A DNA stretch of 36,927 nucleotides, from NCBI GenBank assembly GCA_913044165.1, contig CAJWMY010000010.1:1-36927 (forward strand), given 5' to 3'. A model generated the notes under the pieces. It saw nothing but the letters and a program-made list of their open reading frames with translations. It was not told the origin of the DNA and made no database searches. Positions 4,645-35,491 of this stretch are shown piece by piece; position 1 is the first letter of the stretch; each line of letters starts with the position of its first letter. The stretch comes from an uncultured Puniceicoccaceae bacterium. Lineage in GTDB: Bacteria; Verrucomicrobiota; Verrucomicrobiia; Opitutales; Coraliomargaritaceae. The position numbers and the translations under genes are program-made.

Positions 4645-5604
4645 ATGAGTGATGCCATCAGTTGGAAAAAGCAAAATTTAATCAGTATTGAACACCTTTC
4701 TGTAACTGAAATAAATACTATTTTTTCACTCGCAAGAGCTTATAAAAAAGCCACTGATTCTGGCCAATCAAAATTTAATGCTCTTGAAGGCAAAACCGTA
4801 GTTAATCTTTTTCTTGAACCGAGTACACGTACGCGCCTAGCTTTCGAAATTGCTAGTAAACGTCTATCTGCAGATAGTATTACTATCAGTGGAGTCGCAA
4901 GCAGTTTGAGCAAGGGTGAGTCGCTGAAAGATACCGCACATAACATTGTAGCTCTCGGCGCAGATATTATAATCATGCGTCACTCTTCATCTGGCTCCTC
5001 CGAATATCTTTCCCGAACCATTAAAACGCCTATTATTAATGCTGGTGATGGATCACACGCCCATCCGACACAAGCCTTGCTCGATGCTTTCACATTAATG
5101 GAACGTTTAGGAGATGTAAAAAAGAAAAAAGTCACTATTCTTGGGGATATTCTTTTCAGTCGAGTAGCTCGTTCTAATATTCATTGTCTACAAAAGTTAG
5201 GCGCACATGTAACACTAGCTGGTCCTAATACTTTAGTCCCTAAAGCATTTGAAGCGATGGGGGTAAGAGTCTCCCATAATTTAAAAGAAGCACTGGAAGA
5301 TGCTGATGCCATCATGCTTCTAAGAATTCAACACGAAAGACAAACATCCACTCATTTTCCTTCTATCAGTGAATACAAAACAAGCTTCGGACTAAATGAA
5401 AGGAGGGCGCACTGGATTAAGCCTAACGCAATCATAATGCATCCAGGGCCCATAAATCGGGGCGTGGAAATTGATTCGAAGTTAGCAGATTCAGCAAATT
5501 CTGTAATTTTAGAACAAGTAAAAAACGGAGTCTTTGTTCGTATGGCAATTCTCCATCTTTGTCATAGTGCCTACAATAAATGTAAAATCAAACTTCCAAA
5601 ATAA
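4645..5604 (+). CDS. pyrB: Aspartate carbamoyltransferase catalytic subunit
   Basis: Joins carbamoyl phosphate and aspartate to carbamoyl-aspartate, the committed step of pyrimidine synthesis, in the cytoplasm. 319 residues, normal for the catalytic chain. The carbamoyl-phosphate loop STRTR is at 60-64 (FLEPSTRTRLAFE), followed by a second substrate loop (SLSKGESL), HPTQALLD, and the C-terminal HPGPINRGVEI. The ATG at 4645 follows about 215 bases of AT-rich intergenic DNA shared with the ssrA promoter. pyrC begins 13 bases after the stop, so the two are an operon. No regulatory-chain gene (pyrI) is seen. Confidence 0.97.
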   Translation: MSDAISWKKQNLISIEHLSVTEINTIFSLARAYKKATDSGQSKFNALEGKTVVNLFLEPSTRTRLAFEIASKRLSADSITISGVASSLSKGESLKDTAHNIVALGADIIIMRHSSSGSSEYLSRTIKTPIINAGDGSHAHPTQALLDAFTLMERLGDVKKKKVTILGDILFSRVARSNIHCLQKLGAHVTLAGPNTLVPKAFEAMGVRVSHNLKEALEDADAIMLLRIQHERQTSTHFPSISEYKTSFGLNERRAHWIKPNAIIMHPGPINRGVEIDSKLADSANSVILEQVKNGVFVRMAILHLCHSAYNKCKIKLPK

Positions 5605-5617
5605 TATAATATAAAGA

Positions 5618-6904
5618 ATGAATCAATATTTATGGATACAAAATGGATTAGTTATTGATCCTGACAACAATCGAGAAGCAGTCGGTGAAATATTCGCGAA
5701 AGATGGCCTTATTGTTAAGGATTTGACTGATGAGGAAAAAGACAAAGCTACTATTTATGATGCAAAAAATTTAGTCGTGGCACCTGGGCTCGTTGACATC
5801 CATGTACATTTCAGGGAACCGGGGCAGACGCACAAAGAAGATATAGCAAGTGGTTCTAGAGCAGCTGCGGCAGGAGGCTTTACTTCTGTTGTTTGTATGC
5901 CCAACACTAATCCAGTTTGTGATTCAGTTGGTACATTGGAACGCATCAAAGCAAGTATAGAAAAAGAGTCTGTTATCCATATTTATACAACTGGCTGTTT
6001 AACAATAGGAATGAAAGGCGAACAACTATGCCCTACAGGCCAACTCAAAGGTGCTGGAGTAGTAGCATTAACCGATGATGGTCTCTGTGTCCAAAATAAC
6101 GAAATAATGCGGAGAGCTGTCGAATATGCGACCCTTCACAAACTACCTATAATGGATCACTGCCAAGATGTAAGTCTGACCAAAGATGCGGTTATGAATG
6201 AAGGTGAGGTTTCCTTAAAACTGGGTCTCAAAGGTTGGCCTAGAGCTGCCGAAGATATAATTGTCGCTCGAAATATAATTTTATCTGAACTAACAGGAGC
6301 CCATATCCATATGCAACATGTTAGTTCTTACCATTCAGTTGAACTACTTCGTAATGCCAAGGCTCGAGGTATTCCTGTTACCGGTGAAGCTAGTCCCCAC
6401 CATATAGAGTTTACTGATGAATGCATAGGAGATTATAATACTCTATTTAAAATGAATCCACCTTTAAGAACGAACAAAGATCGGTTGGCTTTGATTGAAG
6501 GCTTAAAGGATGGCACAATAGATTGTATCGCAACAGATCATGCACCCCACTCCAATACAGAAAAAGACTGTGAATTTGATAAAGCACCCTTTGGCATTAT
6601 AGGCCTAGAAAATGCCTTAGCCAGTACTCTTGGAACCCTCTTCCACAACAAAGAGCTTTCATTAAAGGAGGTGATTGCTTTAATGACTCACAAAGGAGCA
6701 GAAATTTGCAATTTGCCAGCAGGTAATTTATCTATAGGTGCTCGCGCTGATATCTGCATCTTCGACCCAAATAAAAAATGGATCGTTAATGGCGATGATT
6801 TTAAAAGCAAGTCGAGAAATTGCCCTTGGATTGGCCGAACACTTAGAGGGCAAGTTAAGGCTACATATGTAGAAGGTAAAGAAGTCTATCGCTTACGTGT
6901 CTAA
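5618..6904 (+). CDS. pyrC: Dihydroorotase, type I
   Basis: Cyclises carbamoyl-aspartate to dihydroorotate, the step directly after PyrB. 428 residues fits the longer class I family. Zinc-binding HVH (H62, H64) lies in DIHVHFREPGQTHKEDI, followed by AAAAGGFTS, then a GEASPHH segment and ATDHAPH, which supply the remaining metal ligands and the catalytic aspartate. It starts 13 bases after pyrB, and the protease gene follows after 3 bases, so all three are probably one transcript. In some bacteria this family is a non-catalytic partner of PyrB, but the metal ligands here are intact, which favours an active enzyme. Confidence 0.96.
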   Translation: MNQYLWIQNGLVIDPDNNREAVGEIFAKDGLIVKDLTDEEKDKATIYDAKNLVVAPGLVDIHVHFREPGQTHKEDIASGSRAAAAGGFTSVVCMPNTNPVCDSVGTLERIKASIEKESVIHIYTTGCLTIGMKGEQLCPTGQLKGAGVVALTDDGLCVQNNEIMRRAVEYATLHKLPIMDHCQDVSLTKDAVMNEGEVSLKLGLKGWPRAAEDIIVARNIILSELTGAHIHMQHVSSYHSVELLRNAKARGIPVTGEASPHHIEFTDECIGDYNTLFKMNPPLRTNKDRLALIEGLKDGTIDCIATDHAPHSNTEKDCEFDKAPFGIIGLENALASTLGTLFHNKELSLKEVIALMTHKGAEICNLPAGNLSIGARADICIFDPNKKWIVNGDDFKSKSRNCPWIGRTLRGQVKATYVEGKEVYRLRV

Positions 6905-11968: not shown

Positions 11969-14900
11969 ATGCCAAAACGTACAGATTTAAAAACAATCTT
12001 AATCATAGGTTCAGGGCCAATAGTAATTGGGCAGGCATGTGAATTTGATTATTCAGGGACTCAAGCATGTAAAGCACTTCGAGAAGAAGGCTATAAAGTG
12101 GTTTTAGTTAATAGTAATCCAGCGACGATTATGACAGATCCTGAGTACGCTGATGTAACATATATTGAGCCTTTAACAGTGGAAGCGTTAGAGAAAATCA
12201 TATTAAAAGAAAAGCCCGATGCATTACTTCCAACTTTAGGGGGCCAGACTGCTCTTAACCTATCAATGGACTTAAATGCAAAAGGTATCCTTGCTAAATA
12301 CAATGTTGAAATGATTGGGGCAAAGCCTGAAGCCATCGAAAAAGGAGAAGCAAGGGAAATCTTCAAGCAAGCAATGGTCAAAATTGGAATGGATGTGGCA
12401 AGATCAGCTACAATCAATAATCTTAAGGATGCACTCGATGCTGCTGATAATTTGATCGGTGAGTTTCCAATCATTATTCGCCCAAGCTTCACACTCGGTG
12501 GTTCTGGCGGAGGCATTGCCTATAACCGTGAAGAATTTGAAAAGATGGTCCAGAACGGCCTTGATATTTCCCCTACTCATGAAGTCTTGATCGAGGAATG
12601 CTTGCTCGGATGGAAAGAATATGAAATGGAAGTTATGCGAGACCACAAAGACCAATGTGTGGTAATTTGCTCAATTGAAAATTTTGACCCAATGGGTGTC
12701 CATACAGGTGACTCAATTACAGTTGCTCCTGCAATGACATTAACCGACAAAGAATACCAATTAATGCGTGATGCATCATTTGCATGCATTCGAGAAGTTG
12801 GTGTTGAAACAGGTGGTTCAAATATTCAATTTTCTGTAAATCCCCAAGATGGACGACTTGTAGTAATTGAAATGAACCCTCGTGTTTCTCGTAGCTCGGC
12901 CCTTGCTTCAAAAGCAACTGGATTCCCTATTGCCAAAATTGCTGCAAAACTTGCCGTTGGTTATAGCTTAGATGAATTACAAAATGATATTACTAGAGAA
13001 ACACCAGCTAGCTTTGAACCCTCTATTGACTACGTTGTAACTAAAATTCCACGCTTCACTTTTGAAAAATTTCCTGGCTCCGATCCGACTTTAACCTCTG
13101 CAATGAAATCTGTAGGTGAAGCCATGGCGATAGGCCGTACATTTAAGGAATCCCTACAAAAGGCTCTTCGTTCTTTAGAAATCTCAGCCAAAGGATTAAT
13201 GGGACCTCCTAAATTCCATAAAAAAATAGAAGACATTCAACGCGTACGACAAGGTATATCTGTTCCCACTCCAGAACGCATATTTTGGTTACGACATGGA
13301 TACCTTAATGGCTTTAGCGTAGAAACCATGTTTGAGCTTTCAAAAATCGACCCTTGGTTCCTACATCAGATACAAGAATTGGTTGAATTAGAAAAAGAGC
13401 TCTCTAACACTAAGCTAGAAAATATTTCTGATTCTTTACTCTTAAAAGCTAAATCAAGTGGTTTTTCTGATTCACTCTTAGCTGACTTACTAGATTCTAG
13501 CCTAGAAAAAGTTACCTCACATAGAAAAGGAAAAGGAATCGATACTCAGTTTCGTCTCGTTGATACTTGTGCTGGAGAATTTGAAGCATACACGCCTTAT
13601 TATTATTCTTCTTATGGATCTGAAAACGAAATTAAAAAATCTGATAAACCAAAAATAATGATCCTTGGAGGTGGACCCAATCGTATTGGCCAAGGCATTG
13701 AATTTGATTATTGTTGCGTCCACGCTTCCTTTGCCCTTAGAGATGCCGGATATGAAACTGTTATGGTAAATTCAAACCCTGAAACAGTCTCAACGGATTA
13801 CGATACCTCAGATAAATTATTTTTTGAGCCCCTCACCTTGGAGGATGTTTTAGAAATATATCAACAGGAAAATTGCTCAGGAGTTATTGTTCAATTTGGT
13901 GGGCAAACACCATTGAATCTTGCCACTGAACTTTCAAAAAATGGAGTAAAAATTATAGGCACATCCCCTGAAATGATTGATGCTGCAGAGGACAGAGATC
14001 AATTCCGTACTATTCTTGAAGAATTAAACTTAAAACAACCAGCAAACCGCATTGCGCATTCTCGAGAAGAGGCTTATTTAGCTGCTGAATCTATTGGTTT
14101 CCCTGTCTTACTTAGACCATCTTTCGTACTAGGTGGTCGGGGAATGTTTATTGTCTATAACCTAGAAGAGATGAGAAACATAATAACTGAAGTATTTGAA
14201 GCTGCCCCCGGGAAACCAGTATTAATTGATAAATTTCTCGAAGACGCTTATGAGTTAGACGTAGATTGCATTTCTGACCAAGAAACTACCGTCATTGGGG
14301 GAATCCTTCAACATGTTGAATTTGCTGGGGTACACTCTGGTGATGCTGCTATGGTAATGCCACCACATACCCTGTCTCCAGATATAATAAAAACTGTTCG
14401 GGTAGCAACTCACGCTCTAGCAAAAGCTTTAAAAGTTATTGGACTCATGAATGTCCAATATGCTATTAAAGATGATGAGTTATTTATTATTGAAGTTAAT
14501 CCTAGGGCTTCTCGAACCGTTCCATTTGTATCTAAAGCAATTGGTCAGTCGTTAGCAAAGCTTGCCGCTAGGGTTATGGCTGGAGAAAAGTTGAAAAACC
14601 TAAAATTTACAGAAGAAATTATCCCCCCTTATTATGCGGTTAAGGAGTCCGTCTTTCCCTTTGCTCGGTTTCCCGGGGCTCCTATCATGCTAAGCCCTGA
14701 AATGCGAAGCACAGGAGAAGTAATGGGTATAGATTCCGATCTTGGGGTAGCATTTGCAAAAACTCAAATGGCAGCATCTCCTCCACTGCCAACAAAAGGT
14801 GATGCTTTTGTCAGCGTAAAAGACTCTGATAAAGAGCGTGCGATTTCGATTGCTAAAAAACTCAGCGCTTTAGGTTTTGGAATTATTGCAACCGCAGGAA

Positions 14901-15196
14901 CTAGTGATCTTTTTAAAGCACATAATATTGAAGTAAAGAGAGTTTGCCGCCTAAGTGAAGGACGGCCAAATGTCATAGATTTGATCAAAAATAATCAAGT
15001 CAGCCTCATCATCAATACACCACAAGGAACAATACCGCGCCAAAACGAGAATCAAATTCGCACAGAAGCAGTAAAACACAAAGTCTGTATTATGACTACA
15101 ATTTCAGCTGCTGATGCCGCAGTTGATGGAATCAAGTCCCTAAGAGAAAAAGGGTTTGAAGTCTGCTCAATTCAAGATTACGGAAAAAAAATCTAA
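11969..15196 (+). CDS. carB: Carbamoyl-phosphate synthase large subunit
   Basis: Makes carbamoyl phosphate from bicarbonate, ammonia (from the CarA glutaminase) and two ATP, feeding PyrB and arginine synthesis. 1075 residues, full length. Two homologous ATP-grasp halves are visible: [20 protein letters not shown] at the start and [20 protein letters not shown] near 570, each followed by GGQTALNL or GGQTPLNL and by E-MNPR/E-VNPR metal-binding segments. An MGS-like C-terminal domain (from about 940) may bind allosteric effectors. carA is not in the window. purU starts 17 bases downstream on the same strand. Confidence 0.98.
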
Positions 15197-15213
15197 TAAC
15201 GAATCAACGCTCA

Positions 15214-16077
15214 ATGAAAAAAGAATCAATTATAGCATTATTACATGGGCCTGATCATCCTGGTATTGTATCCCAAGTAGCCTCATGGATATACGATCGA
15301 AATGGGAACATAGACCATGCTGACCAACACAAAGACCCTGAAGCTAATATTTTCTTTCAAAGGGTTGAATGGACCCCATATGATGCATCTGAAAAATCTC
15401 TAGAAAAAGAATCGAATGCTTTTAAAAGTTTTGCCAGAAGTACTCTTGAAATGAGCGCATCGGTTGTCCTAAGTACTAAAAAGCCTAAAGTTGCGCTCTT
15501 TGTATCTAAGATTGACCACTGTTTTCACGATCTTATATTACGATTCAAAGCAAATGAACTTAACGGAACACTTGCATGCATAATATCAAATCATGAAGAT
15601 TTAAAAGATGCTGCTGAAAGTTACGATATTCCCTTTTACTATACTCCTCTCGAAAAGAATAACAAAGCAAATGCAGAAGAAGCACAAAATAAGCTACTAA
15701 AGGAACTCGAAATCGAAGTAGTTGTGCTTGCCCGCTACATGCAAATCTTATCTTCTGAATTCTTAAAGGCCATATCCGTACCTGTGATTAACATCCACCA
15801 TTCTTTTCTTCCAGCATTTGCTGGAGGAAAGCCATATCACCAAGCATATAATCGTGGTGTTAAAATAATTGGAGCTACTGCTCATTATGCCACTGCTGCC
15901 TTAGACGAAGGCCCTATTATATATCAAGATGTGACTCAAATTAATCACCGAAACTCAATTATAGATCTAATTCGAAAAGGGAAAGATTTAGAAAAATCAG
16001 TATTTGCACAGGCCGTAAGATTGCATTTAAATAATAGAATTCTTGTCTATAACAACAAAACAGTAGTATTTGATTAA
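15214..16077 (+). CDS. purU: Formyltetrahydrofolate deformylase
   Basis: Hydrolyses 10-formyl-tetrahydrofolate to formate and tetrahydrofolate, balancing one-carbon pools. 287 residues. An N-terminal ACT domain (LLHGPDHPGIVSQVASWIY) is followed by a formyltransferase-like fold with the active-site histidine in NIHHSFLPAF, then PYHQAYNRGVK and GATAHYAT, and the aspartate segment LDEGPIIYQDV. The FAGGKPYH loop is typical of PurU and separates it from PurN. It lies 17 bases after carB, and a TPR membrane protein follows 17 bases later. Confidence 0.95.
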   Translation: MKKESIIALLHGPDHPGIVSQVASWIYDRNGNIDHADQHKDPEANIFFQRVEWTPYDASEKSLEKESNAFKSFARSTLEMSASVVLSTKKPKVALFVSKIDHCFHDLILRFKANELNGTLACIISNHEDLKDAAESYDIPFYYTPLEKNNKANAEEAQNKLLKELEIEVVVLARYMQILSSEFLKAISVPVINIHHSFLPAFAGGKPYHQAYNRGVKIIGATAHYATAALDEGPIIYQDVTQINHRNSIIDLIRKGKDLEKSVFAQAVRLHLNNRILVYNNKTVVFD

Positions 16078-25597: not shown

Positions 25598-28564
25598 TTA
25601 CGTATTAGAAATCCAAAGACATCCATATGGATTTAATTCAATCTCTGCTTTAACGTCGCTGTAACATTGCCCGGAAATTAAATCATGCCAATTCTCAGTA
25701 CTAATCAAATTTAATTCATTTAAAGACACTCTTACAACTTCGTCAGAGACATTATGTAAAGCAAAAATACTTTGATCTCGATCGAGGCTTTCTCGCCAAA
25801 AAGCGAAAACCTTATCACCTAAATGTAAAGTTAATTGAGTTGCATTTGGATGAAATGCGGGCTGTTTCTTTCTAATAGAAATGAGATGCTTAAGGGCTTC
25901 AAAGACAATAGAATGAGAGTCTTTAGAGTCACTCAGTTTATCATTTAAATCTTTCCATTCCCATCTATAACGGTTAATTGAACGCGCATGGCCGGTTTCT
26001 TCTGTCAATGAATGAGCATTCTCAGTACCTAACAAACTGTGTATATAAAAAGCAGGTATTCCCTCAAGTGCTAGAAGAATGGTATGCGCACAAATAAAAC
26101 GTTCTTTTTGAAAAATATCTGCACCTTTTGAAATAGTACCCTTCATTGCATCAAAGAGACTAATATTAGCCTCATATGGAACCTCTTTTTTTCCATTTAC
26201 TTTTCGATTCGAAATAGTACCTCCAAAAGACTTTAATGTATTAAGTAGATCATTTTGATTTTGCTCGGAAACCAAACCTTCTAGAGGTCGTAAACCAATT
26301 CCATCATGTGAGGCTATAAAATTCAAATAACTTCGTCCTCTTCTTGCTGGGGGCATAGACATCATCCATGATTTTAAGAGCGTAGCATCCCCTTTAAGTA
26401 ATGCATAAATTAAAAGTGGTGGTAAAGAAAAGTTATAAATCAAATGTGCCTCATTATCATTTCCGAAATAACTCAAATTCTCACGATTAGGCACATTTGT
26501 CTCTGTAATTAAAACAGATTCAGGATTCATCTGCTCCAAAATAAGACGCATCAACTTAACAACCTCATGGGTTTGGTTTAAATGAACACATGTAGTTCCT
26601 GATTCCTTCCAAAGGAAAGCAATAGCATCTAAACGAAAAAGCCGAACCCCTTTAGATACAAGAAATTTCAAAAGCCTAATAAACGCATAAAGGACTTCGG
26701 GATTATTGAAATTTAAATCAACTTGATCATGGCTAAATGTACACCATACCTTCTTTTTTCCATCGCTAGTCTCAACTTCTTTAAATAATGGGCTTGAACG
26801 CGGTCGAATAACTTTTGAACGATCAAAGCTATCATCAACTGTAAAAAAGAAATCTTTACCTTCACCTTTGTTAGCCAAGAAATTTTTGAACCATCTAGAC
26901 TCAACAGAACAGTGATTGATAACTAAATCTGCCATCAAGTCAAAGTCAGAGCCAATGGCTTCAATATCTGACCATTCTCCTAAATCATCATCTACTATAA
27001 AATAATCTATAACTGAAAAACCGTCATCTGAACTGTAGGGAGTAAATGGCAAAATATGGACTGTACTAATTATTTGACTAAGTTGTTTTCGCAAAAACTT
27101 ATTTAATGTACGCAAAGGCGCTTCATCGCCATGCTTTATAGTATCTCCATATGTTATTAAAGTTATATCGTTCTCACTCCATTTATTATGCCAACGTGAC
27201 AAATCATGAGATGCATCATTCAAATCCGAAAGCGCTACAATCGAATCTGTAATTGATTCAGTGTCATCTTTAGGATATAGGTTTTTTACGTGTTGCTCTA
27301 CCAAGTCACGTTGCCTCGTCTTGATTCGCTTTTTAGTCTTTATGGGGGAATATAATGCCATATCTTCATCCACTGCTTCAGTAAGCTGATCATAAATATC
27401 CGGAATTGCTGATAGAACTCGCTTCCAGCTTGGAATAAATGGCGTATCAGTTGGCTGATTTAAAAATTCATTACCTGCTCGCATAATACTTTCAGCAAAA
27501 ACCTCAACCGACTGCATTTCCTTGTGTCGATCATAATGCAATCCATTCATAAGAGAATCACTCTCATAAATATCTATTAAGTCTAGTGCCATTCGATAAT
27601 AAGATGCTTTAATTGTACGAATTTTTGCTGTTGAGAATTCCTCCCCAAAGGTTGCAAGTTTCCTAAAAAGTGACTTTGAGATATCTGAGCTCATTTTAGT
27701 TAACCCTTTAAATTGATCATGAGAGGATAAATCTTGATGCTTATGGTCATAGCGATCTGAAATATCAACCTGACAAATTTTATTCTTTTTGTGATTTCTG
27801 TAAATTTCAGACAACATCCCCATCTCCAAGCCCCAATCTGATGGAATTCGGATTTCTGGAATGATTTCTTTTTTAAAAGCGAACTCTCCCGATAGTGCAT
27901 ATTTAAAACTATCCATATACTCAAGATAATCAGTCTCACCGCAGACTTGTTTTAAAGCTCTAAGCAAAGGTGTAATTAATAGACGGCAAACACGCCCATT
28001 CATTTTATTATCAGCGATACGTGAATAATATCCCTTGCTATAGCTAAAATTCAAACTTGGATTGAGCACCGGGTAAATTAAGCGAGTCAACATTTCTTTA
28101 TGGTAAGTCAAAATATCACAATCATGGATAGCCACAACTTTTGATTGGTTGCTTGCTAATAAATAACCAAACATAAACCATACATTTCGACCCTTACCCT
28201 CTTGAAGGGGAGACAGATTGTAATCCTGCAATAAAGAATCAATTTTTCTTAAACGGGGACCACCATTCCATAATACTTTGATATTTTGAGGTAAAGGCTG
28301 AAGAGATTTTAAAGCAAGCTGATATTCAGAATCCGTTGCCTGATCCAAACCAACGACTATTTCATCAATATAATCCATCTGGGATAAAATTTCAATAATC
28401 CTAGGGAAGGCATCTCCTTTGAATTCAGAAAATAATGACGGTAAAATCAATCCAATAGGATTTGACCGAGATAATTTAAAAACTTCGCGCTCGAGACTCT
28501 CGTTAGAACGTGTTTTTAAATTATGAAAATTAGTAACGACACCATTTTGATGAAAATCACTCAT
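25598..28564 (-). CDS. Fusion: glucosyl-3-phosphoglycerate synthase-like GT + GH13_18 glucosylglycerate phosphorylase
   Basis: 988 residues, no signal peptide, so cytoplasmic. Residues about 35-330 are a GT-A glycosyltransferase of the GpgS/MpgS type: a NPIGLILPSL first strand, then GGPRLRKID, a GKGRNVWFMFG segment, and the metal motif HDCD at 147-150 followed by LTYHKEML and IYPVLNP. After a helical stretch, residues about 410-988 form a sucrose-phosphorylase-like GH13_18 domain: LPFTPYSSDDGFSVIDY, LVINHCS, nucleophile D646 in FRLDAIAFLWK, acid/base E688 in ITETNVPN, and D754 in ASHDGIGLRP. All three catalytic residues are present, and the pattern matches glucosylglycerate phosphorylase (E. 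coli YcjM type) better than true sucrose phosphorylases. The GT would join NDP-glucose and 3-phosphoglycerate; the GH13 domain would split glucosylglycerate with phosphate into glucose-1-phosphate and glycerate. Phosphatase and glycerate kinase genes sit directly upstream. Confidence 0.85.
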   Translation of the reverse strand: MSDFHQNGVVTNFHNLKTRSNESLEREVFKLSRSNPIGLILPSLFSEFKGDAFPRIIEILSQMDYIDEIVVGLDQATDSEYQLALKSLQPLPQNIKVLWNGGPRLRKIDSLLQDYNLSPLQEGKGRNVWFMFGYLLASNQSKVVAIHDCDILTYHKEMLTRLIYPVLNPSLNFSYSKGYYSRIADNKMNGRVCRLLITPLLRALKQVCGETDYLEYMDSFKYALSGEFAFKKEIIPEIRIPSDWGLEMGMLSEIYRNHKKNKICQVDISDRYDHKHQDLSSHDQFKGLTKMSSDISKSLFRKLATFGEEFSTAKIRTIKASYYRMALDLIDIYESDSLMNGLHYDRHKEMQSVEVFAESIMRAGNEFLNQPTDTPFIPSWKRVLSAIPDIYDQLTEAVDEDMALYSPIKTKKRIKTRQRDLVEQHVKNLYPKDDTESITDSIVALSDLNDASHDLSRWHNKWSENDITLITYGDTIKHGDEAPLRTLNKFLRKQLSQIISTVHILPFTPYSSDDGFSVIDYFIVDDDLGEWSDIEAIGSDFDLMADLVINHCSVESRWFKNFLANKGEGKDFFFTVDDSFDRSKVIRPRSSPLFKEVETSDGKKKVWCTFSHDQVDLNFNNPEVLYAFIRLLKFLVSKGVRLFRLDAIAFLWKESGTTCVHLNQTHEVVKLMRLILEQMNPESVLITETNVPNRENLSYFGNDNEAHLIYNFSLPPLLIYALLKGDATLLKSWMMSMPPARRGRSYLNFIASHDGIGLRPLEGLVSEQNQNDLLNTLKSFGGTISNRKVNGKKEVPYEANISLFDAMKGTISKGADIFQKERFICAHTILLALEGIPAFYIHSLLGTENAHSLTEETGHARSINRYRWEWKDLNDKLSDSKDSHSIVFEALKHLISIRKKQPAFHPNATQLTLHLGDKVFAFWRESLDRDQSIFALHNVSDEVVRVSLNELNLISTENWHDLISGQCYSDVKAEIELNPYGCLWISNT

Positions 28565-28575
28565 AGTAAAATTTG

Positions 28576-29430
28576 TTATATCTGGGTTAGGCTAAGGTTT
28601 AAAATTTCTAAAACTGAAGAATTCCATCCTTTAGATGCGTAGAATTTAGCAGAATAATAGTCAGGCCTTCTTAAGGCCATCATTCCTTTTTCAGCATTTG
28701 GAATAACTAATGCCAGATTAGACTGCTCCAACATAAGTCGATCATTTGGGCTATCTCCTATTGCGAATGTTTTCCAATCTACATTTGGATAACGATTTTT
28801 AAATAAAGACAATACTGATGTCATACCGATAGCTTTATCATAACCAGATTCCATTAAATGAAAAAATTTACCGCCTCTAACTGCTTTAATACCATGAGCA
28901 GATATCTTTTGCTTAAAATACTGCCAATCCTCAAGACTACTATGCCATAAAATTGGCTCAGTTGCATAACGATTTTTTGCATTTTTTGAAGCCTGCAGAT
29001 TTAATCCCGTTAGATCAGATAATGATTCAGCAGATAAGTCAGAAAATCCCTCAAATTTAAAACTATGATTTATCCTAAGCTTGTTAGAAATACTAAGTAT
29101 TCTCTCATAAGCAGCTGGATCATAAACACAAAAGTAATCTCCAAGTAGCGCAGTAGACTTTATATACTTAGACCAACACTCTCCTTCGATATCTAGCTTC
29201 GGAAAAGCTAAAGTAGCACCATTCTCTCCAATTAAAATAGGCTTACGCTTCCACCTCCATTTATCAGCAATAACAAGCATTTCTGACAATGTTTTACTAG
29301 AATTTAACACGAGTGGTATTTCTTCCTCATGAATAACGTCCAAGGCATCAATTGCATCTTTATATGAATAAGATCCATCAAGTAATGATGCATCTAAATC
29401 AGTTATAATAATATATGCCTTAGTTCCCAT
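28576..29430 (-). CDS. HAD phosphatase, mannosyl/glucosyl-3-phosphoglycerate phosphatase type
   Basis: 284 residues. HAD motif I is TDLDASLLD with nucleophile D11 and D13, motif II is the serine in LVLNSSKTLSE, and motif IV is FAIGDSPNDRLML. The cap region with LIGENGATL is characteristic of the MPGP branch of HAD-IIB enzymes. It would remove the phosphate from glucosyl-3-phosphoglycerate (or the mannosyl analogue) to give the free solute. The gene overlaps the upstream kinase by 11 bases and ends 11 bases before the fusion gene, so the three are translationally coupled. The glucosyl specificity is inferred from the neighbouring phosphorylase. Confidence 0.88.
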   Translation of the reverse strand: MGTKAYIIITDLDASLLDGSYSYKDAIDALDVIHEEEIPLVLNSSKTLSEMLVIADKWRWKRKPILIGENGATLAFPKLDIEGECWSKYIKSTALLGDYFCVYDPAAYERILSISNKLRINHSFKFEGFSDLSAESLSDLTGLNLQASKNAKNRYATEPILWHSSLEDWQYFKQKISAHGIKAVRGGKFFHLMESGYDKAIGMTSVLSLFKNRYPNVDWKTFAIGDSPNDRLMLEQSNLALVIPNAEKGMMALRRPDYYSAKFYASKGWNSSVLEILNLSLTQI

Positions 29431-30325
29431 AATTTTTAATCAATAATCTTTTAAAAGAACGATCTACATTAAAATCGATTACCATCTCAGCAAAATTAGA
29501 CATATCAACTAGCATCCATCGAGTGAGTCGCTCAAAGTGAGATATAAATCTTTCTAACTCTACCTTTGTCATAAAGTGCTGATTCAACTCAAATCCATTT
29601 TCTTCACAGGAAGCACGAAGCTTTTGCTCCTGTTCCATTCGCCAATCTACAATAGTCTCAAAAGAGGGAGTTCTTAATAAAATCGTATGATCAATATAGG
29701 AAAACATTTCTGCGTAGCAAGTAGCTAATTCTTGATTTACATAGCTACGCCAAGTTCCTTCAGAATCTTCTTTTGATTCAAAGGCATTTATTGGATCGGA
29801 TAAAGCATCTAGAGATTGTGCACGGGCTGAAACACACCAACCCTCGAAAAGAATAATATCTACTGGTAAATCAAGTTTGTTCCATTCCTCCTTTGGTACT
29901 CGATCGTCAATTTCTTTCCGAAAACGAGGACTGAGTATCGTACCATCTAATTGAGAAGATATAGATTTGAAAAAGTCTAGGGCTATATCAACAGAATGTG
30001 TACCAGGAACGCCTCGAGTAATAAGTAAAGGATGTACTAACTGAGATAAATTATATCGTTCTTGATATGTTTTATAGAGGTCATCTAAAGACAAAACAAA
30101 TGCGTTAAGATCATATTCTTCTCTAAAATAATCTGATAAAAATCGAGAGAGAGTTGATTTTCCAGTACCTTGGGCTCCATTAATACCAATTACCAATGGA
30201 GCCTCTGTCGATCGATTCCATTTTAAAATTTGTTCAGCAATTGGAAAATATGCACGATCAACTAGAATACGGAAATCAGTATTTAAGCGCTCTTTTTTAA
30301 TGAACTGATCTATAAATAACTCCAT
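29420..30325 (-). CDS. D-glycerate 3-kinase (GLYK/YggC-like)
   Basis: Phosphorylates D-glycerate to 3-phosphoglycerate with ATP. I start at ATG 30325 (301 residues); an in-frame TTG at 30355 would add ten residues. The P-loop is GAQGTGKS at 50-57 in VIGINGAQGTGKSTLS, followed by LSLDDLYKT, THSVDIALDFF, SPRFRKEIDDR and FEGWCVSA, which are the segments of the plant-type GLYK and P-loop uridine-kinase-like family. Upstream of the phosphatase with overlapping coding ends, it closes a cycle: glycerate released from glucosylglycerate returns to 3-phosphoglycerate. The kinase is the first gene of the unit and is followed by no other metabolic gene in the direction of transcription than the two named. 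Confidence 0.87.
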   Translation of the reverse strand: MELFIDQFIKKERLNTDFRILVDRAYFPIAEQILKWNRSTEAPLVIGINGAQGTGKSTLSRFLSDYFREEYDLNAFVLSLDDLYKTYQERYNLSQLVHPLLITRGVPGTHSVDIALDFFKSISSQLDGTILSPRFRKEIDDRVPKEEWNKLDLPVDIILFEGWCVSARAQSLDALSDPINAFESKEDSEGTWRSYVNQELATCYAEMFSYIDHTILLRTPSFETIVDWRMEQEQKLRASCEENGFELNQHFMTKVELERFISHFERLTRWMLVDMSNFAEMVIDFNVDRSFKRLLIKNYGN

Positions 30326-30406
30326 CTGCAACGAAATATGCAAGAATCGAGCCAAATTTCTAAAACTGCACTAAATCCTCAAAAACGAATTGTCATTTTA
30401 TCAATT

Positions 30407-30955
30407 TTAAGGCGAAAGCAAAATAGGAATATGTACTTCAGCACGTTTCTTTTGGTCAGCAACAGAAGGGCTGTCCCAATAAATTGCTCTAGCTTCACCT
30501 GTAATTGTATAAATACCTTGCTTTTCAATCCATTTTACAAGCTTACTTTTAGCTTTTTCAAAATTAGACTGGTTGTATCTTCCACAATAACCAATACTAG
30601 CAACAGTCCGGCTCGGAATTTTTTCGACGTCTACTGAACTGCTGGACTTTAGCTCTCTTTTTGAGGCGTCCTTACCTACAAAGAAGTACATTTCTCCTGG
30701 ATTCAATCTAACCTCAACTGGTGAAGTCATCGCTATATTTCGGGTGGTTATATACCAAAAAAGTGGCATAAAAAGATTGTTTTCTTCAAAATATGAAACA
30801 TTTGAACGTTTAACCAAGACAGTAGAAGCTGGTAAATATTTTACCTCAATTACTCCTTCATTAGTTCTTTTAAAAGCTGATTCAGATGCATTAATTGTTA
30901 AATTTGGAGCAATCATACAAAGAAAAATGGTAGTAATGTTTCCATAAATAGTCAT
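30407..30955 (-). CDS. Exported SOUL-family heme-binding protein
   Basis: 182 residues with an N-terminal hydrophobic segment (ITTIFLCMIAPNLTINA) that looks like a signal peptide. The body shows the SOUL/HBP pattern: a strand rich in R and V, then FMPLFWYITTRNIAMTSPVEVRL, where the IAMTSPVE segment is the family hallmark, MYFFVGKDA, a basic SRTVASIGYCGRYN, and a C-terminal region ending in an IPILLSP-type strand. Eukaryotic members bind heme or hydrophobic ligands; the role in bacteria is not settled. It is read before the glucosylglycerate genes, 82 bases from the kinase start. Confidence 0.85.
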   Translation of the reverse strand: MTIYGNITTIFLCMIAPNLTINASESAFKRTNEGVIEVKYLPASTVLVKRSNVSYFEENNLFMPLFWYITTRNIAMTSPVEVRLNPGEMYFFVGKDASKRELKSSSSVDVEKIPSRTVASIGYCGRYNQSNFEKAKSKLVKWIEKQGIYTITGEARAIYWDSPSVADQKKRAEVHIPILLSP

Positions 30956-31021: not shown

Positions 31022-31747
31022 TTAATTGAACCATACATTTAATAATACGCCCTTTAATTTAAATCCTATAGTCATAATTACCAATAAAAGCCCTAATGAT
31101 AAGCCATAGGTGCTAGACTCTGGAATACCAACTAATGCAATAGAATCAAATCCAACGATTCCTTCAAATTCATCACCAACCGCAGCATAGCCTAATACAG
31201 AAGAGAATATTCTAATAGATTCTATTGTATCCAAAGTTGACTCAAAAGTATCAATACCAATTTGACCATTGTGATTAGCTACTCTGTGCATAGTAGATTC
31301 TGATATGGGTATATAAACTGAACCCCATCCACTATTTTCAGGGAAAAATTGAAATGAGTCACTTACCCAAAAAGTGCCTCCACCCTGCATTACATTAGTT
31401 CTATTTCCTAAAGATATACGAATTGAAGCAGCATCTATATCACTCCAATTGGCGAAATTAAACTGTATGCCAGTTACGCCTTTACTGTTGTAATTTCCAG
31501 TCCAAGCATCTGAAGTATTGTGAATGATTAATTTCTTGCCTTGATTGCCTGAATACAAGCCTGGAGTAATCTGAATATAATTATTGAATGTGGAAAAAGA
31601 ATTTTGATTAGTTATAGAAATTCTTTGTGCTGGGTCCCATCCGTCTAAGCCATTTGAGAAATCACTAGTCAGAATAGGAATATTCTGTGCGTTAATTCCA
31701 CATATTAAAAATGCACTTACATAAAAGTATTTAATATATAGAGACAT
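31022..31747 (-). CDS. PEP-CTERM sorted exported protein
   Basis: 241 residues. Signal peptide at about 1-20 (FYVSAFLICGINA). The middle has a beta-rich region with W and G residues (SNGLDGWDPAQR, WTGNYNSKG, FWVSDSFQFFPENSGWG), like a carbohydrate-binding or concanavalin-like fold. The C-terminus is a PEP-CTERM signal in a variant form: IPESSTYGLSLG at 208-219, a hydrophobic helix (LLLVIMTIGF) and then a lysine-rich end. Exosortase recognises this signal and moves the protein to the surface or the extracellular matrix. The usual P-E-P is P-E-S here. It starts two bases after the DUF1501 stop in the direction of transcription. Confidence 0.85.
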   Translation of the reverse strand: MSLYIKYFYVSAFLICGINAQNIPILTSDFSNGLDGWDPAQRISITNQNSFSTFNNYIQITPGLYSGNQGKKLIIHNTSDAWTGNYNSKGVTGIQFNFANWSDIDAASIRISLGNRTNVMQGGGTFWVSDSFQFFPENSGWGSVYIPISESTMHRVANHNGQIGIDTFESTLDTIESIRIFSSVLGYAAVGDEFEGIVGFDSIALVGIPESSTYGLSLGLLLVIMTIGFKLKGVLLNVWFN

Positions 31748-31749
31748 CT

Positions 31750-33225
31750 TTAAATAATAATATTGTTATTTAAAATACCCAAAGGAGATAATAAATTATT
31801 TAGGTTAAAATTGTTTATATTAGGTATGACTGTAGAAAGTTCGGATTGTGGGACGCCAAACCAACCTGCAATTTCTGCCATGTACGCATCAACTGGAGTA
31901 GTAGGCAAGAGACGCCCGCGGCCTACGTCATCGGGACCACCAATAGATAAGTTTGGATATTGTCCATAAATTTTTCCCCCATTAGCATTTCCACTTATGA
32001 TAAAATGATTTCCGCCCCAAGCATGGTCCGATCCACTCCCATTTGAAGATAGGGTACGGCCAAAGTCTGAGGCTGTATAAAGAACAACGTTGTTTTCTAA
32101 ACCTAGACCAACAATATTCCTCCAAAATAATTCTATTGCTTCATTTATTTCTCTAAAAAGTTGAGATTGAGGTATAACAACTTCATTATGATGATCCCAC
32201 CCTCCCCGGTCTATAAAAAATATTTGGCGATTCATCCCTAGTGCCATTCTAGCTTCTATAATTTTACTAAGCATTGAAAAACGAGATGCCGTATCAGAGA
32301 GATTGCTTACATCTGATGGATTATATGGCTGATCTAAACTTTCTAATGCTTCTTTAAAAAAAATTGAAGTATCAATTGATTTTTTATTAGATTTAGCAAG
32401 CGTTTTAGCATAGATATTATGATAATGATCACTTAGAATATCGTTTACTGAAAGTGTTAAAGTAGGATCTAAATTATAATTGTTTAATTCAACAATTCCA
32501 GATGGATCGGTAATATATGGTACGGTAGAATTGCCAGTTTGAAGTACATTTGTGCCTGACAGGGATATATTCATTGAAATATTATCTTGTTGGTTAGCGT
32601 GAGCCATTACCTCTGCCATTCTACCGCCCCAACCTTTTGGCGCAGTTCCTCTAACTTGAGGCACAAGTGTTTGCCAATGAATTTGGTGGTCAGCATGAGA
32701 AAATAATCCCTCTGGTAAAGATACAGAAGCATTGTTATAATCATTTAATGAGGTAGGCTCGATTAATGATCCAACGTTACTAACAAAGGCAAGATCACCA
32801 TTGTCATATAGCGTTTTTAAATAAGGCAAATCCGGATGAATACCAAATTCGCTGTAAGGCTGATTAGTTGAATTAATTGGAAGCAAATCATCTTTTCTGT
32901 GAGCTAATCCACCTAAACCATTTGCTATATTATCTAAATTATAAGGGTCGTAGATTACGCCTTCTGATAAATAATTCCCGCCACGGACTTGTTTATATTC
33001 GTTATATGCATTATCTTCTCTGGGCACTAGCATATTAAAAGAATCATTACCGCCACTAAAAAAAAGACATACAATAGCTTTATAATCTGGGAATCTTGAC
33101 CCTGAAACCGCACCTGCCGTTAACCTTAGAGATAAAAGTGAAGACAATAGAGACGCGGTACCAACTGCCGCACAATTTGCCTGGGCAATAAATTTCCTCC
33201 GAGATATTTTCTTATCTAGATTCAT
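31750..33225 (-). CDS. DUF1501 protein with Tat signal
   Basis: 491 residues. Twin-arginine signal ISRRKFIAQ near 7-15 followed by a hydrophobic stretch, so the folded protein is exported by Tat. Family landmarks are VCLFFSGGNDSFNMLVP, GIHPDLP, FSHADHQIHWQT, GGWDHHN, TASDFGRTL and DHAWGGNH. The fold is alkaline-phosphatase-like but the activity is unknown; such genes are typical of Planctomycetes and Verrucomicrobiota. Its start is one base after the DUF1800 stop, the standard pairing. PEP-CTERM and SOUL genes continue the same strand. Confidence 0.93.
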   Translation of the reverse strand: MNLDKKISRRKFIAQANCAAVGTASLLSSLLSLRLTAGAVSGSRFPDYKAIVCLFFSGGNDSFNMLVPREDNAYNEYKQVRGGNYLSEGVIYDPYNLDNIANGLGGLAHRKDDLLPINSTNQPYSEFGIHPDLPYLKTLYDNGDLAFVSNVGSLIEPTSLNDYNNASVSLPEGLFSHADHQIHWQTLVPQVRGTAPKGWGGRMAEVMAHANQQDNISMNISLSGTNVLQTGNSTVPYITDPSGIVELNNYNLDPTLTLSVNDILSDHYHNIYAKTLAKSNKKSIDTSIFFKEALESLDQPYNPSDVSNLSDTASRFSMLSKIIEARMALGMNRQIFFIDRGGWDHHNEVVIPQSQLFREINEAIELFWRNIVGLGLENNVVLYTASDFGRTLSSNGSGSDHAWGGNHFIISGNANGGKIYGQYPNLSIGGPDDVGRGRLLPTTPVDAYMAEIAGWFGVPQSELSTVIPNINNFNLNNLLSPLGILNNNIII

Positions 33226-33226
33226 C

Positions 33227-35491
33227 TTAATAAAGTGTATTAAATTCTACCGTCATTGAAATTAAAAAAATAAGATATTTTACTTTCATATAATCAGTCG
33301 GAAATTCTCCCGTAGCATTCATGGCATCTATTAAAATAACTTTAGTTGATTCACCTAAGGCACCTCCACACATAATTAAATCAAGCCAACTTATTAATGT
33401 ATCTATGTCATAACTCAGACTTACTTCATAACTAAAATCTAAATTTGCATCTACATACCATCGAGAGCCAAAATCTCCACTAGGATCCTGAATTAATCCT
33501 TGATCTATTAATAAGTTAAAATGATTCAAAAGCTTAAGAGCACTAACATCATTACTAATTTGGAATTCAGGAGCACTCAGACCCATATCTGAAATAGTTC
33601 CATTCGGAGAATAACTTGGACTATAAAAATTAAAAACTGAACTTTGTTCATAAGGAGCTTGGAGAATAGAATCTCCAAGGTTTTTAAAACAAATCCATTC
33701 ATAAACGCGATTTGATTCTAAATTAAAAGAACGACACAGATGCATTAATCTAATTAATGGCTCTCTAAGCTTTCCGTGTATAGGATCAAAAGATAAGCGG
33801 TGCGACCGAGCTTCTGGGTGCAGCAGTATAGCTTTAATTAAAGCAGCCATATCCCCCCTGTTTCCTGACCCAACACCATTATAAAGGCCAGACTTAAATG
33901 CACTCGAAACTGACTGAATATAACTTGGCGAAGGATTAGAAACTGTGAACCTTTGAATCATAAATTTTGCAAAAAAGGGAGGCAGGTTTTTATGTTCAAA
34001 CAAATGATCAAGGAGCCCTTTAACATCTGAACGTACTCCCTCTTTATTATTAGGGAATGGTCCTAGAGTAGTACCATCCAACAAAGTCTTTGTGCTAAAA
34101 TCATGCCTAACTGGTTGTATGCGCATAGGATCGACATAATTTCCAAAAAAAACTTCTATATTAGATCGATCCCCTGGGCGACGTAATCCAGTAAATACCT
34201 TAGCAAACTCAGCTACATCTTCAATCGAATATGTTGGAATTCCCTTACCATTTGAATTTAATTCCAATGTTCCATCTTCATTTAATTCCCAAAGTCCTAT
34301 GGTGAATAACTGCATTACTTCTCGAGCGTAATTTTCATCAGGGAAAGTCCCCTTACTTGGATCTGCTTTCTTATTTTCAATATATGAAAGATAATTACCC
34401 ATATGGGGACTCCAAGTAACTTCACTTAATATATCCCTAAAATTACCAAATGCATTTCGAACAAAAATATCATAATAATTTAACCAACGCTCAGTCGTGC
34501 CCTCTTGACCACTACCGGCTTCACCTACAACAAAATATTGGCTTAGTGCCCACGCAACTCTTTGTCTTAATTGATCCTCTGCATTAATAGCAGCTTCATA
34601 CCAAACTGCTTTTTTGTCACCCCCCCATCCAAGTCCAGAAACATCCCAAACATGACCTTTGTGGCGAATTGAATTTTCAGCATGCAAGCCGATTTTAGGA
34701 ACGCCTGCGTAGTCTAAATTTCCTGCATGATCCGAAGGGTCAATTGGATTTCCATCTATGTCGAAAAATCCACCATATCCAGGTAATGGATTATTCCAAT
34801 TTGCATCATAACGAGTAGGACCACGATAAAACGCAAAACGTTGGCCTAAGCTTGAATCGTGACCAACCTCATTAGGTAAAGCACCATCTCTCCACGTATA
34901 GTCTTGATAATCTGGATCACTTCGCTGTCGCCAAAAAGCTCTATGATAAAAAGGCGGTAGTGCAATTTGCTGATCGATCCAGCTTTCAAAACTTGTGTAA
35001 CTACTCTCCGTAAGATCTGCAGTCGCTAAATTTGGGAAGTTCGCAATATCAGAACGTGTTGGACCAAAAGTAGCTTGCATCAAAAAACGACTAACAAGTG
35101 CGCTATTACCAGGAATACTAATAGTTTTTTCATAACGTTTACGAAAAAATCCATTATTTCCTTGAGGCAAGATTAAAACCGATACTGGATCAGCTGGATA
35201 TACATCATAAGCATTTGGGGAAATAGACTCCCAGCCATTTCCATAATTTCTTGAAATAGGCATCCATTCTGAAAGACCATCAGAATACTCTATAACCTCT
35301 AATGGATAACTAGAATTGTCTAACCATAGATGAACCATAGTCCCATCTGTAATAAACTGATTTAATCCTCCATCTTCTGCCTTAGAAGTACCCAAAAAGG
35401 CAAATAAGAAACAAATAATCTTACATGTTAAAATAGGAGTAAATCTGAATAAACTATAGTTAGAAGAGCTAATCATTAAGTGGGGTTTCAA
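33227..35491 (-). CDS. DUF1800 protein, exported
   Basis: 754 residues. A signal peptide near 25-40 (ICFLFAFLGTSKA) follows a positively charged start. Family landmarks are FLMQATFGPTRSDI, LRQRVAWALSQYFVV, GNYLSYIENKKADP, NYAREVMQLFTIGLWELN and AKVFTGLR, then a C-terminal HPEARS and a final short sheet. The N-terminal 130 residues carry a region like a secreted-repeat domain. Function is unknown; it is always found next to DUF1501, which suggests the two act together outside the cytoplasm. Upstream, 71 bases away, is the TSP3-repeat protein, read in the same direction. Confidence 0.93.
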   Translation of the reverse strand: MKPHLMISSSNYSLFRFTPILTCKIICFLFAFLGTSKAEDGGLNQFITDGTMVHLWLDNSSYPLEVIEYSDGLSEWMPISRNYGNGWESISPNAYDVYPADPVSVLILPQGNNGFFRKRYEKTISIPGNSALVSRFLMQATFGPTRSDIANFPNLATADLTESSYTSFESWIDQQIALPPFYHRAFWRQRSDPDYQDYTWRDGALPNEVGHDSSLGQRFAFYRGPTRYDANWNNPLPGYGGFFDIDGNPIDPSDHAGNLDYAGVPKIGLHAENSIRHKGHVWDVSGLGWGGDKKAVWYEAAINAEDQLRQRVAWALSQYFVVGEAGSGQEGTTERWLNYYDIFVRNAFGNFRDILSEVTWSPHMGNYLSYIENKKADPSKGTFPDENYAREVMQLFTIGLWELNEDGTLELNSNGKGIPTYSIEDVAEFAKVFTGLRRPGDRSNIEVFFGNYVDPMRIQPVRHDFSTKTLLDGTTLGPFPNNKEGVRSDVKGLLDHLFEHKNLPPFFAKFMIQRFTVSNPSPSYIQSVSSAFKSGLYNGVGSGNRGDMAALIKAILLHPEARSHRLSFDPIHGKLREPLIRLMHLCRSFNLESNRVYEWICFKNLGDSILQAPYEQSSVFNFYSPSYSPNGTISDMGLSAPEFQISNDVSALKLLNHFNLLIDQGLIQDPSGDFGSRWYVDANLDFSYEVSLSYDIDTLISWLDLIMCGGALGESTKVILIDAMNATGEFPTDYMKVKYLIFLISMTVEFNTLY

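Follow-up and report, generated by a model that had tools for sequence, protein, structure and literature searches.

The operon described here was located on a stretch of 36,927 nucleotides (hereafter, the window) from the draft genome of an uncultured Puniceicoccaceae bacterium (assembly GCA_913044165.1, contig CAJWMY010000010.1). Three closely packed genes span positions 25598–30325 of the minus strand. The first to be transcribed encodes a P-loop kinase, the second a HAD phosphatase, and the third is an open reading frame (ORF) of 988 codons; together they are predicted to specify a complete cycle of synthesis and recycling of the protective solute glucosylglycerate (GGa). The kinase gene, assigned to the class III (plant-type) D-glycerate 3-kinases (GLYK), occupies 29420–30325 and gives a protein of 301 aa from the ATG at 30325; an alternative TTG start at 30355 would yield a longer ORF. 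The phosphatase gene, of the mannosyl-3-phosphoglycerate phosphatase (MPGP/GpgP) family, occupies 28576–29430 (284 aa). The single ORF at 25598–28564 (988 aa) is predicted to be a fusion of glucosyl-3-phosphoglycerate synthase (GpgS) and glucosylglycerate phosphorylase (GGaP). It comprises a GT81-type GpgS domain (residues 1–407, positions 27344–28564), delimited by profile NF040724 and by alignment to mycobacterial GpgS; a junction together with a helical stretch that extends the phosphorylase at its N-terminus (residues 408–460, 27185–27343), delimited by alignment, nonsynonymous divergence (dN) and model confidence (pLDDT); and a GH13_18 glucosylglycerate phosphorylase domain (residues 461–988, 25601–27184), delimited by profiles, motifs and fold match. 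All of these features are on the minus strand. An earlier note on this DNA had described an 11-base overlap and an 11-base gap between the genes, as well as a P-loop, HAD motifs, an HDCD motif and the GH13 triad. All were confirmed: the overlap is that of kinase and HAD (29420–29430), the gap precedes the fusion gene (28565–28575), and the P-loop (GAQGTGKST), the HAD motifs (DLDAS and GDSPND), HDCD and the triad were seen where expected.

The glycosyltransferase (GT) part of the fused protein was matched by the GpgS_Meth profile NF040724 over residues 3–403, with 358 bits (E = 6e-107) for the whole fusion and 361 bits (E = 5e-108) for the domain alone, the curated cut-off being 700; the same profile matched 20 out of 20 GT relatives. 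Alignment to 3ckj, 3e25 and 7p5l showed that the GpgS active-site residues are kept, namely K124, D148 and D150 of HDCD, LSGE at 224–227, E247 and H274. In Mycobacterium tuberculosis GpgS the active-site residues include Lys114, Asp134, Asp136, Ser210 of PLSGE, Glu232 and His258, and the serine of PLSGE has been tied to discrimination against mannose (PMC2581804); this serine is retained in the window. The profile searches and structure predictions proposed as checks in the earlier note returned GpgS, MPGP-family, GH13_18 and GLYK matches, at E-values that chance would not produce. Matches in the fold search with the whole fusion covered only residues ~408–988, and the fold assignment of the GT domain was based on sequence.

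The HAD phosphatase matched NCBIfam NF001218 with E = 4e-49 and the MPGP-family profiles with E = 1e-41 or better, and was similar to PDB entry 1xvi (2e-19) and to Thermus MpgP 3ztw (7e-11). Its motifs DLDAS, SSKT, K199 and GDSPND are kept across relatives. The kinase was related to D-glycerate 3-kinases in phmmer searches (6ckg, E = 3.5e-19; 7xpc, 1.3e-13) and matched the family profile with 8.5e-38. Its AlphaFold model (pLDDT 94.5) was closest in fold to 7xpc (Z 28.3, 274 residues) and 6ckg (Z 27.6, 261 residues), followed by pantothenate kinases (23.2). The P-loop, RGVPGTH and EGWC motifs were present, with the catalytic residues kept in relatives. Plant and yeast members of glycerate kinase class III make 3-phosphoglycerate (PMC2063504), and the window kinase belongs to this class by sequence and fold, with 3-phosphoglycerate, the GpgS acceptor, as predicted product. 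Class I and class II glycerate kinases were not found in the window genome, which is 87% complete, in searches with positive controls.

The glycoside hydrolase (GH) domain was matched by the sucrose-phosphorylase-type GH13_18 profile TIGR03852 over residues 465–946 (E = 2e-58). The GH13 triad consists of the nucleophile D646, the acid/base E688 within TETN, and D754, aligned with YcjM of Escherichia coli and with the relatives. The window phosphorylase domain shares 39% identity over 547 columns with YcjM. GGaP has been recognised by the signature (T/S)ETN and by a loop-A glutamate where other clades carry glutamine (PMC7178133; used likewise in PMC10608839). Both signatures occur in the window (TETN at 687–690 and PYE at 796–798, with E798 in loop A), in the characterised YcjM and in every relative examined. 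The best solved relatives of the domain are glucosylglycerol and sucrose phosphorylases, and the predicted C-terminal part was superimposed on glucosylglycerol phosphorylase 7xdr with Z 37.5 (rmsd 2.5, 456 residues), which could speak for activity on sucrose or glucosylglycerol instead of GGa. This is nevertheless very unlikely, given the GGaP pattern of PYE and TETN. Loop A reads VGAIYQ in glucosylglycerol phosphorylases and N(L/V)D(I/L/V)YQ in sucrose phosphorylases (PMC7178133). Glucosylglycerol specificity was rejected on the PYE and TETN residues in place of VGAIYQ, and sucrose phosphorylase identity on a loop A of VPYEAN and a TIGR03852 score of 198 bits, below the cut-off of 334.4.

The earlier note had proposed that these genes close a GGa cycle, with the solute built under salt or nitrogen stress and its carbon recovered afterwards, and this reading was partly supported. 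Profile matches, diagnostic sequence motifs, predicted structures and a shared gene order speak for the four enzyme assignments, nearly every known catalytic residue is present, and the cycle closes on paper, although this type of operon is not new. The prediction that the operon encodes the complete synthesis-and-recycling cycle was given a probability of about 0.85. With presumed substrates, flux direction and physiological role, the N-terminal GpgS domain would transfer glucose from ADP- or UDP-glucose onto 3-phosphoglycerate, giving glucosyl-3-phosphoglycerate, which the HAD phosphatase would dephosphorylate to GGa and phosphate. The C-terminal GH13_18 domain would convert GGa and phosphate into alpha-glucose 1-phosphate and D-glycerate, and GLYK would turn D-glycerate back into 3-phosphoglycerate at the expense of ATP. 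Over a full turn, nucleoside diphosphate (NDP)-glucose, ATP and water would give NDP, ADP and glucose 1-phosphate. The window genome carries a glgC-like gene (406 bits, just below cut-off), a UDPGP-family pyrophosphorylase gene and phosphoglucomutase-family genes, so that ADP- or UDP-glucose is a possible donor and glucose 1-phosphate could be used.

One-sided operation would build or empty the GGa pool, and joint operation would be a futile cycle; since running both arms together wastes energy, some control must exist, candidates for the two domains being the levels of their substrates (NDP-glucose, 3-phosphoglycerate and phosphate) or other signals. Because GLYK withdraws glycerate, the third step would be pulled towards breakdown, and the high phosphate of the cell, which favours phosphorolysis, counts against a phosphorylase domain that is mainly synthetic in vivo. 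Such a domain, joining glucose 1-phosphate and glycerate, would make both halves of the fusion producers of GGa rather than opponents; the GGaP reaction can run freely either way and serves synthesis in vitro (PMC11009771), and the role of the enzyme in vivo has been called unsettled in a review (PMC7178133). On the other hand, the operon kinase consumes glycerate, the co-substrate of the synthetic direction, and Prochlorococcus transcripts place the phosphorylase step with recycling (PMC11631117), so that a mainly synthetic role was considered improbable.

Several observations weigh against the complete cycle. The scores of the GT domain with NF040724 and of the HAD phosphatase with TIGR01486 (142 bits, cut-off 164.75) remained below the curated cut-offs; for the fused protein, scores below equivalog cut-offs are expected of relatives because the models were built for other exact enzymes. 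Thr187 of M. tuberculosis GpgS, the side chain of which binds the 3-phosphoglycerate carboxylate in that enzyme (PMC2581804), a feature that need not define the family, is replaced by Cys193 in the window, within GRVC (residues 190–193 of the GpgS domain, minus strand); most unfused relatives carry Ser or Thr at this position, and L047 and L068 carry Cys. The promoter scan gave 19 matches vs 21.8 in shuffled sequences, and no terminator or stress signal was detected by it. In some relatives (L115, L118 and L036) the HAD gene and the fusion are present with the kinase not adjacent, and in L111 the fusion stands alone. Finally, the draft genome (1.26 Mb, 78 contigs) is ~87% complete, so that absences are weak.

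The fusion of synthase and phosphorylase, the most unusual feature of the operon, was not singled out in the earlier note, and neither was its apparent single origin. The AlphaFold model of the fused protein showed two well-predicted parts (mean pLDDT 86.1), with a pTM of 0.61, so that no relative arrangement of the domains is to be read from it. Residues 408–460 of the junction are the least conserved part of the fusion, with pLDDT below 50 at 408–414 and 451–453. Between the window and the nearest genome of the same genus, dN was 0.073 for the GT domain, 0.155 for the GH domain and 0.325 for the junction, with synonymous sites saturated; the HAD phosphatase and the kinase, with dN about 0.37, evolve faster than the fused domains, their catalytic residues being kept. 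Strong purifying selection acts on both fused domains, and both halves look functional as judged from their sequences. Compared with the close relatives L025, L054 and L027, the HAD and kinase products (window 28576–30325) showed 46–58% identity, the fused GT domain 83–89% and the GH domain 70–78%, although the same operon holds them all. The window derives from a fragmented draft assembly, and an assembly or sequencing artefact could be suspected on that account; its probability is practically nil, as an uninterrupted ORF of 988–1009 aa with the same full-length GT-GH fusion was found in more than 25 other genomes of several families, including genomes of 2–3 contigs, and these independent genomes rule it out.

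The survey of related genomes that the earlier note had suggested showed that the gene order is kept in dozens of genomes. In bacteria of the Planctomycetes-Verrucomicrobia-Chlamydiae group the operon consists of three or two genes, with GT and GH fused. The window genus and its relatives have the three-gene layout, and the two-gene layout, [GLYK-HAD] and [GT-GH], was seen in survey families f40 and f50, with Pontiellaceae B12227 (L035) among them. In these two families GLYK-HAD forms a single ORF of 571–594 aa (L107:9455-11239, L108:9015-10799, L109:3822-5537, L110:1712-3442 and L035:481-2196), and the whole predicted cycle is carried by two putative bifunctional proteins. GLYK, HAD, GT and GH are four genes in the Alteromonadaceae (Alteromonas, Salinimonas, Glaciecola and Agaribacter). 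In Gilvimarinus and Marinimicrobium, GLYK-HAD-GT stays together and the GH gene lies apart on the opposite strand. Among the 388 genomes drawn for the phylum survey, full-length fused matches came from the family of the window and from some members of families f20, f40 and f50; most other matches were unfused phosphorylases of about 40–46% identity. Within the fusion-bearing family f50, L113 and L114 have GT-HAD divergent from a GH that groups with the unfused phosphorylases, which suggests replacement or transfer.

In the GH tree, all fused proteins fall on the same side of one branch (SH-aLRT 99). In the GT tree, from which two long-branch rows (L119 and L120) were left out, the 31 fused rows form one clade with support of 100/98, recovered in 200 of 200 bootstrap trees; in a first GT tree the long-branch row L119 split the fused clade, and two changes were needed. 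Many Alteromonadaceae have 3 or 6 bases between the stop of GT and the start of GH, with both genes in the same frame, so that stop loss would yield the fusion. The data fit a single origin, in which a tandem GT-GH pair lost its intervening stop, followed by descent, perhaps with some transfer. One fused copy was found in a metagenome-assembled genome of Planctomycetota (L036), and may reflect transfer or misbinning.

Neutral stop loss between co-expressed neighbours, in which case the fusion would be mechanistically meaningless, has an even chance of being correct, and is compatible with the four-step pathway. The unfused GT and GH neighbours are often in frame and 3–6 bases apart, the stretch that joins the two domains is short and shows little conservation, and the low overall pTM alongside high local confidence predicts no fixed arrangement of the domains. 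In the opposite sense, the fused form persists across a deep clade whose genomes range in size from 1.3 to about 5 Mb, no reversal to the split form was seen in well-sampled trees, and kinase and phosphatase are additionally fused in two families, although none of these points excludes neutrality. Functional coupling is no more likely than a neutral fusion. In a form of coupling that appears rather doubtful, GpgS-GGaP would be a bifunctional antagonistic enzyme, in which reciprocal control within the protein (e.g., by 3-phosphoglycerate, phosphate or osmotic ions) would set the size of the solute pool, with phosphofructokinase-2/fructose bisphosphatase-2 as a model for such control within one polypeptide. 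If this is true, families f40 and f50 would run the whole cycle with two such proteins.

The GGa cycle and the clustering of its genes are already known from other bacteria. According to a review (PMC7178133), genes for glycerate kinase, GpgS or GpgP are often found beside those for GGaP. The neighbourhoods of Franceus et al. 2017, as relayed there, share the predicted pathway and the signature motifs with the window, but their genes are described as separate, whereas GpgS and GGaP are fused here. The Prochlorococcus NATL2A GGa operon provides recycling to glucose 1-phosphate and 3-phosphoglycerate (PMC11631117); it combines GGa synthesis and recycling like the window, but in separate genes and with a putative transporter, which the window operon does not include. 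In Synechococcus PCC 7002, the reference GpgS, GGaP and GpgP genes A2021-A2023 (PMC10873239) are consecutively numbered and separate, unlike the fused GpgS-GGaP. E. coli YcjM resembles the window phosphorylase in its GH13_18 membership, its TETN and PYE signatures and its N-terminal extension, but is a free-standing enzyme, whose operon contains ABC-transporter and sugar-dehydrogenase genes but no GpgS. The Alteromonas/Salinimonas operon agrees with the window in its four domains and their order, with 53–58% identity for GT and GH, but devotes one ORF to GT (407 aa) and another to GH (584 aa). Fusions of compatible-solute enzymes are represented by GgpPS of Marinobacter, adjoined by a GH13_18 glucosylglycerol phosphorylase (PMC10873239), and by MpgS-MpgP (NCBIfam NF011072). 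Both of them join two successive synthetic steps, whereas the window protein joins a synthetic and a degradative one. No description of a GpgS-GGaP or GLYK-HAD fusion was found in a literature search, which did not extend to the original 2017 paper and most subscription papers. Such two-module proteins may be listed in CAZy without comment.

Other genes of the window were also recorded. A SOUL heme-binding-like gene (30407–30955) immediately precedes the kinase on the same strand; of the loci compared, only L027 also has it, and it was therefore not counted as part of the system. Further along, 31022–35491 contains DUF1800 and DUF1501 genes and, after them, a small gene with a PEP-CTERM-like tail, as read from its sequence. 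Ordinary pyrimidine genes, aspartate-carbamoyltransferase-like and dihydroorotase-like, occur in tandem at 4645–6904, and ordinary pyrimidine/one-carbon genes at 11969–16077, where a purU-like formyltransferase carrying an ACT domain comes after the carbamoyl-phosphate synthase large chain. A search for ectoine synthase found nothing in the window genome, but was uninformative since the controls gave nothing either; a search for BCCT transporters was negative as well. Those relatives with this organisation that bear names are assemblies of Opitutia and Puniceicoccaceae; the names, together with the genera that share the operon, point to a marine origin.

The reason why GGa makers also keep a GGa phosphorylase has been stated as unsettled (PMC7178133). 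The predicted presence of maker and breaker on one protein throughout a clade makes this question directly testable, including the coupling of the two activities. The fusion marks a probably marine bacterial lineage that is predicted to store and recycle GGa.

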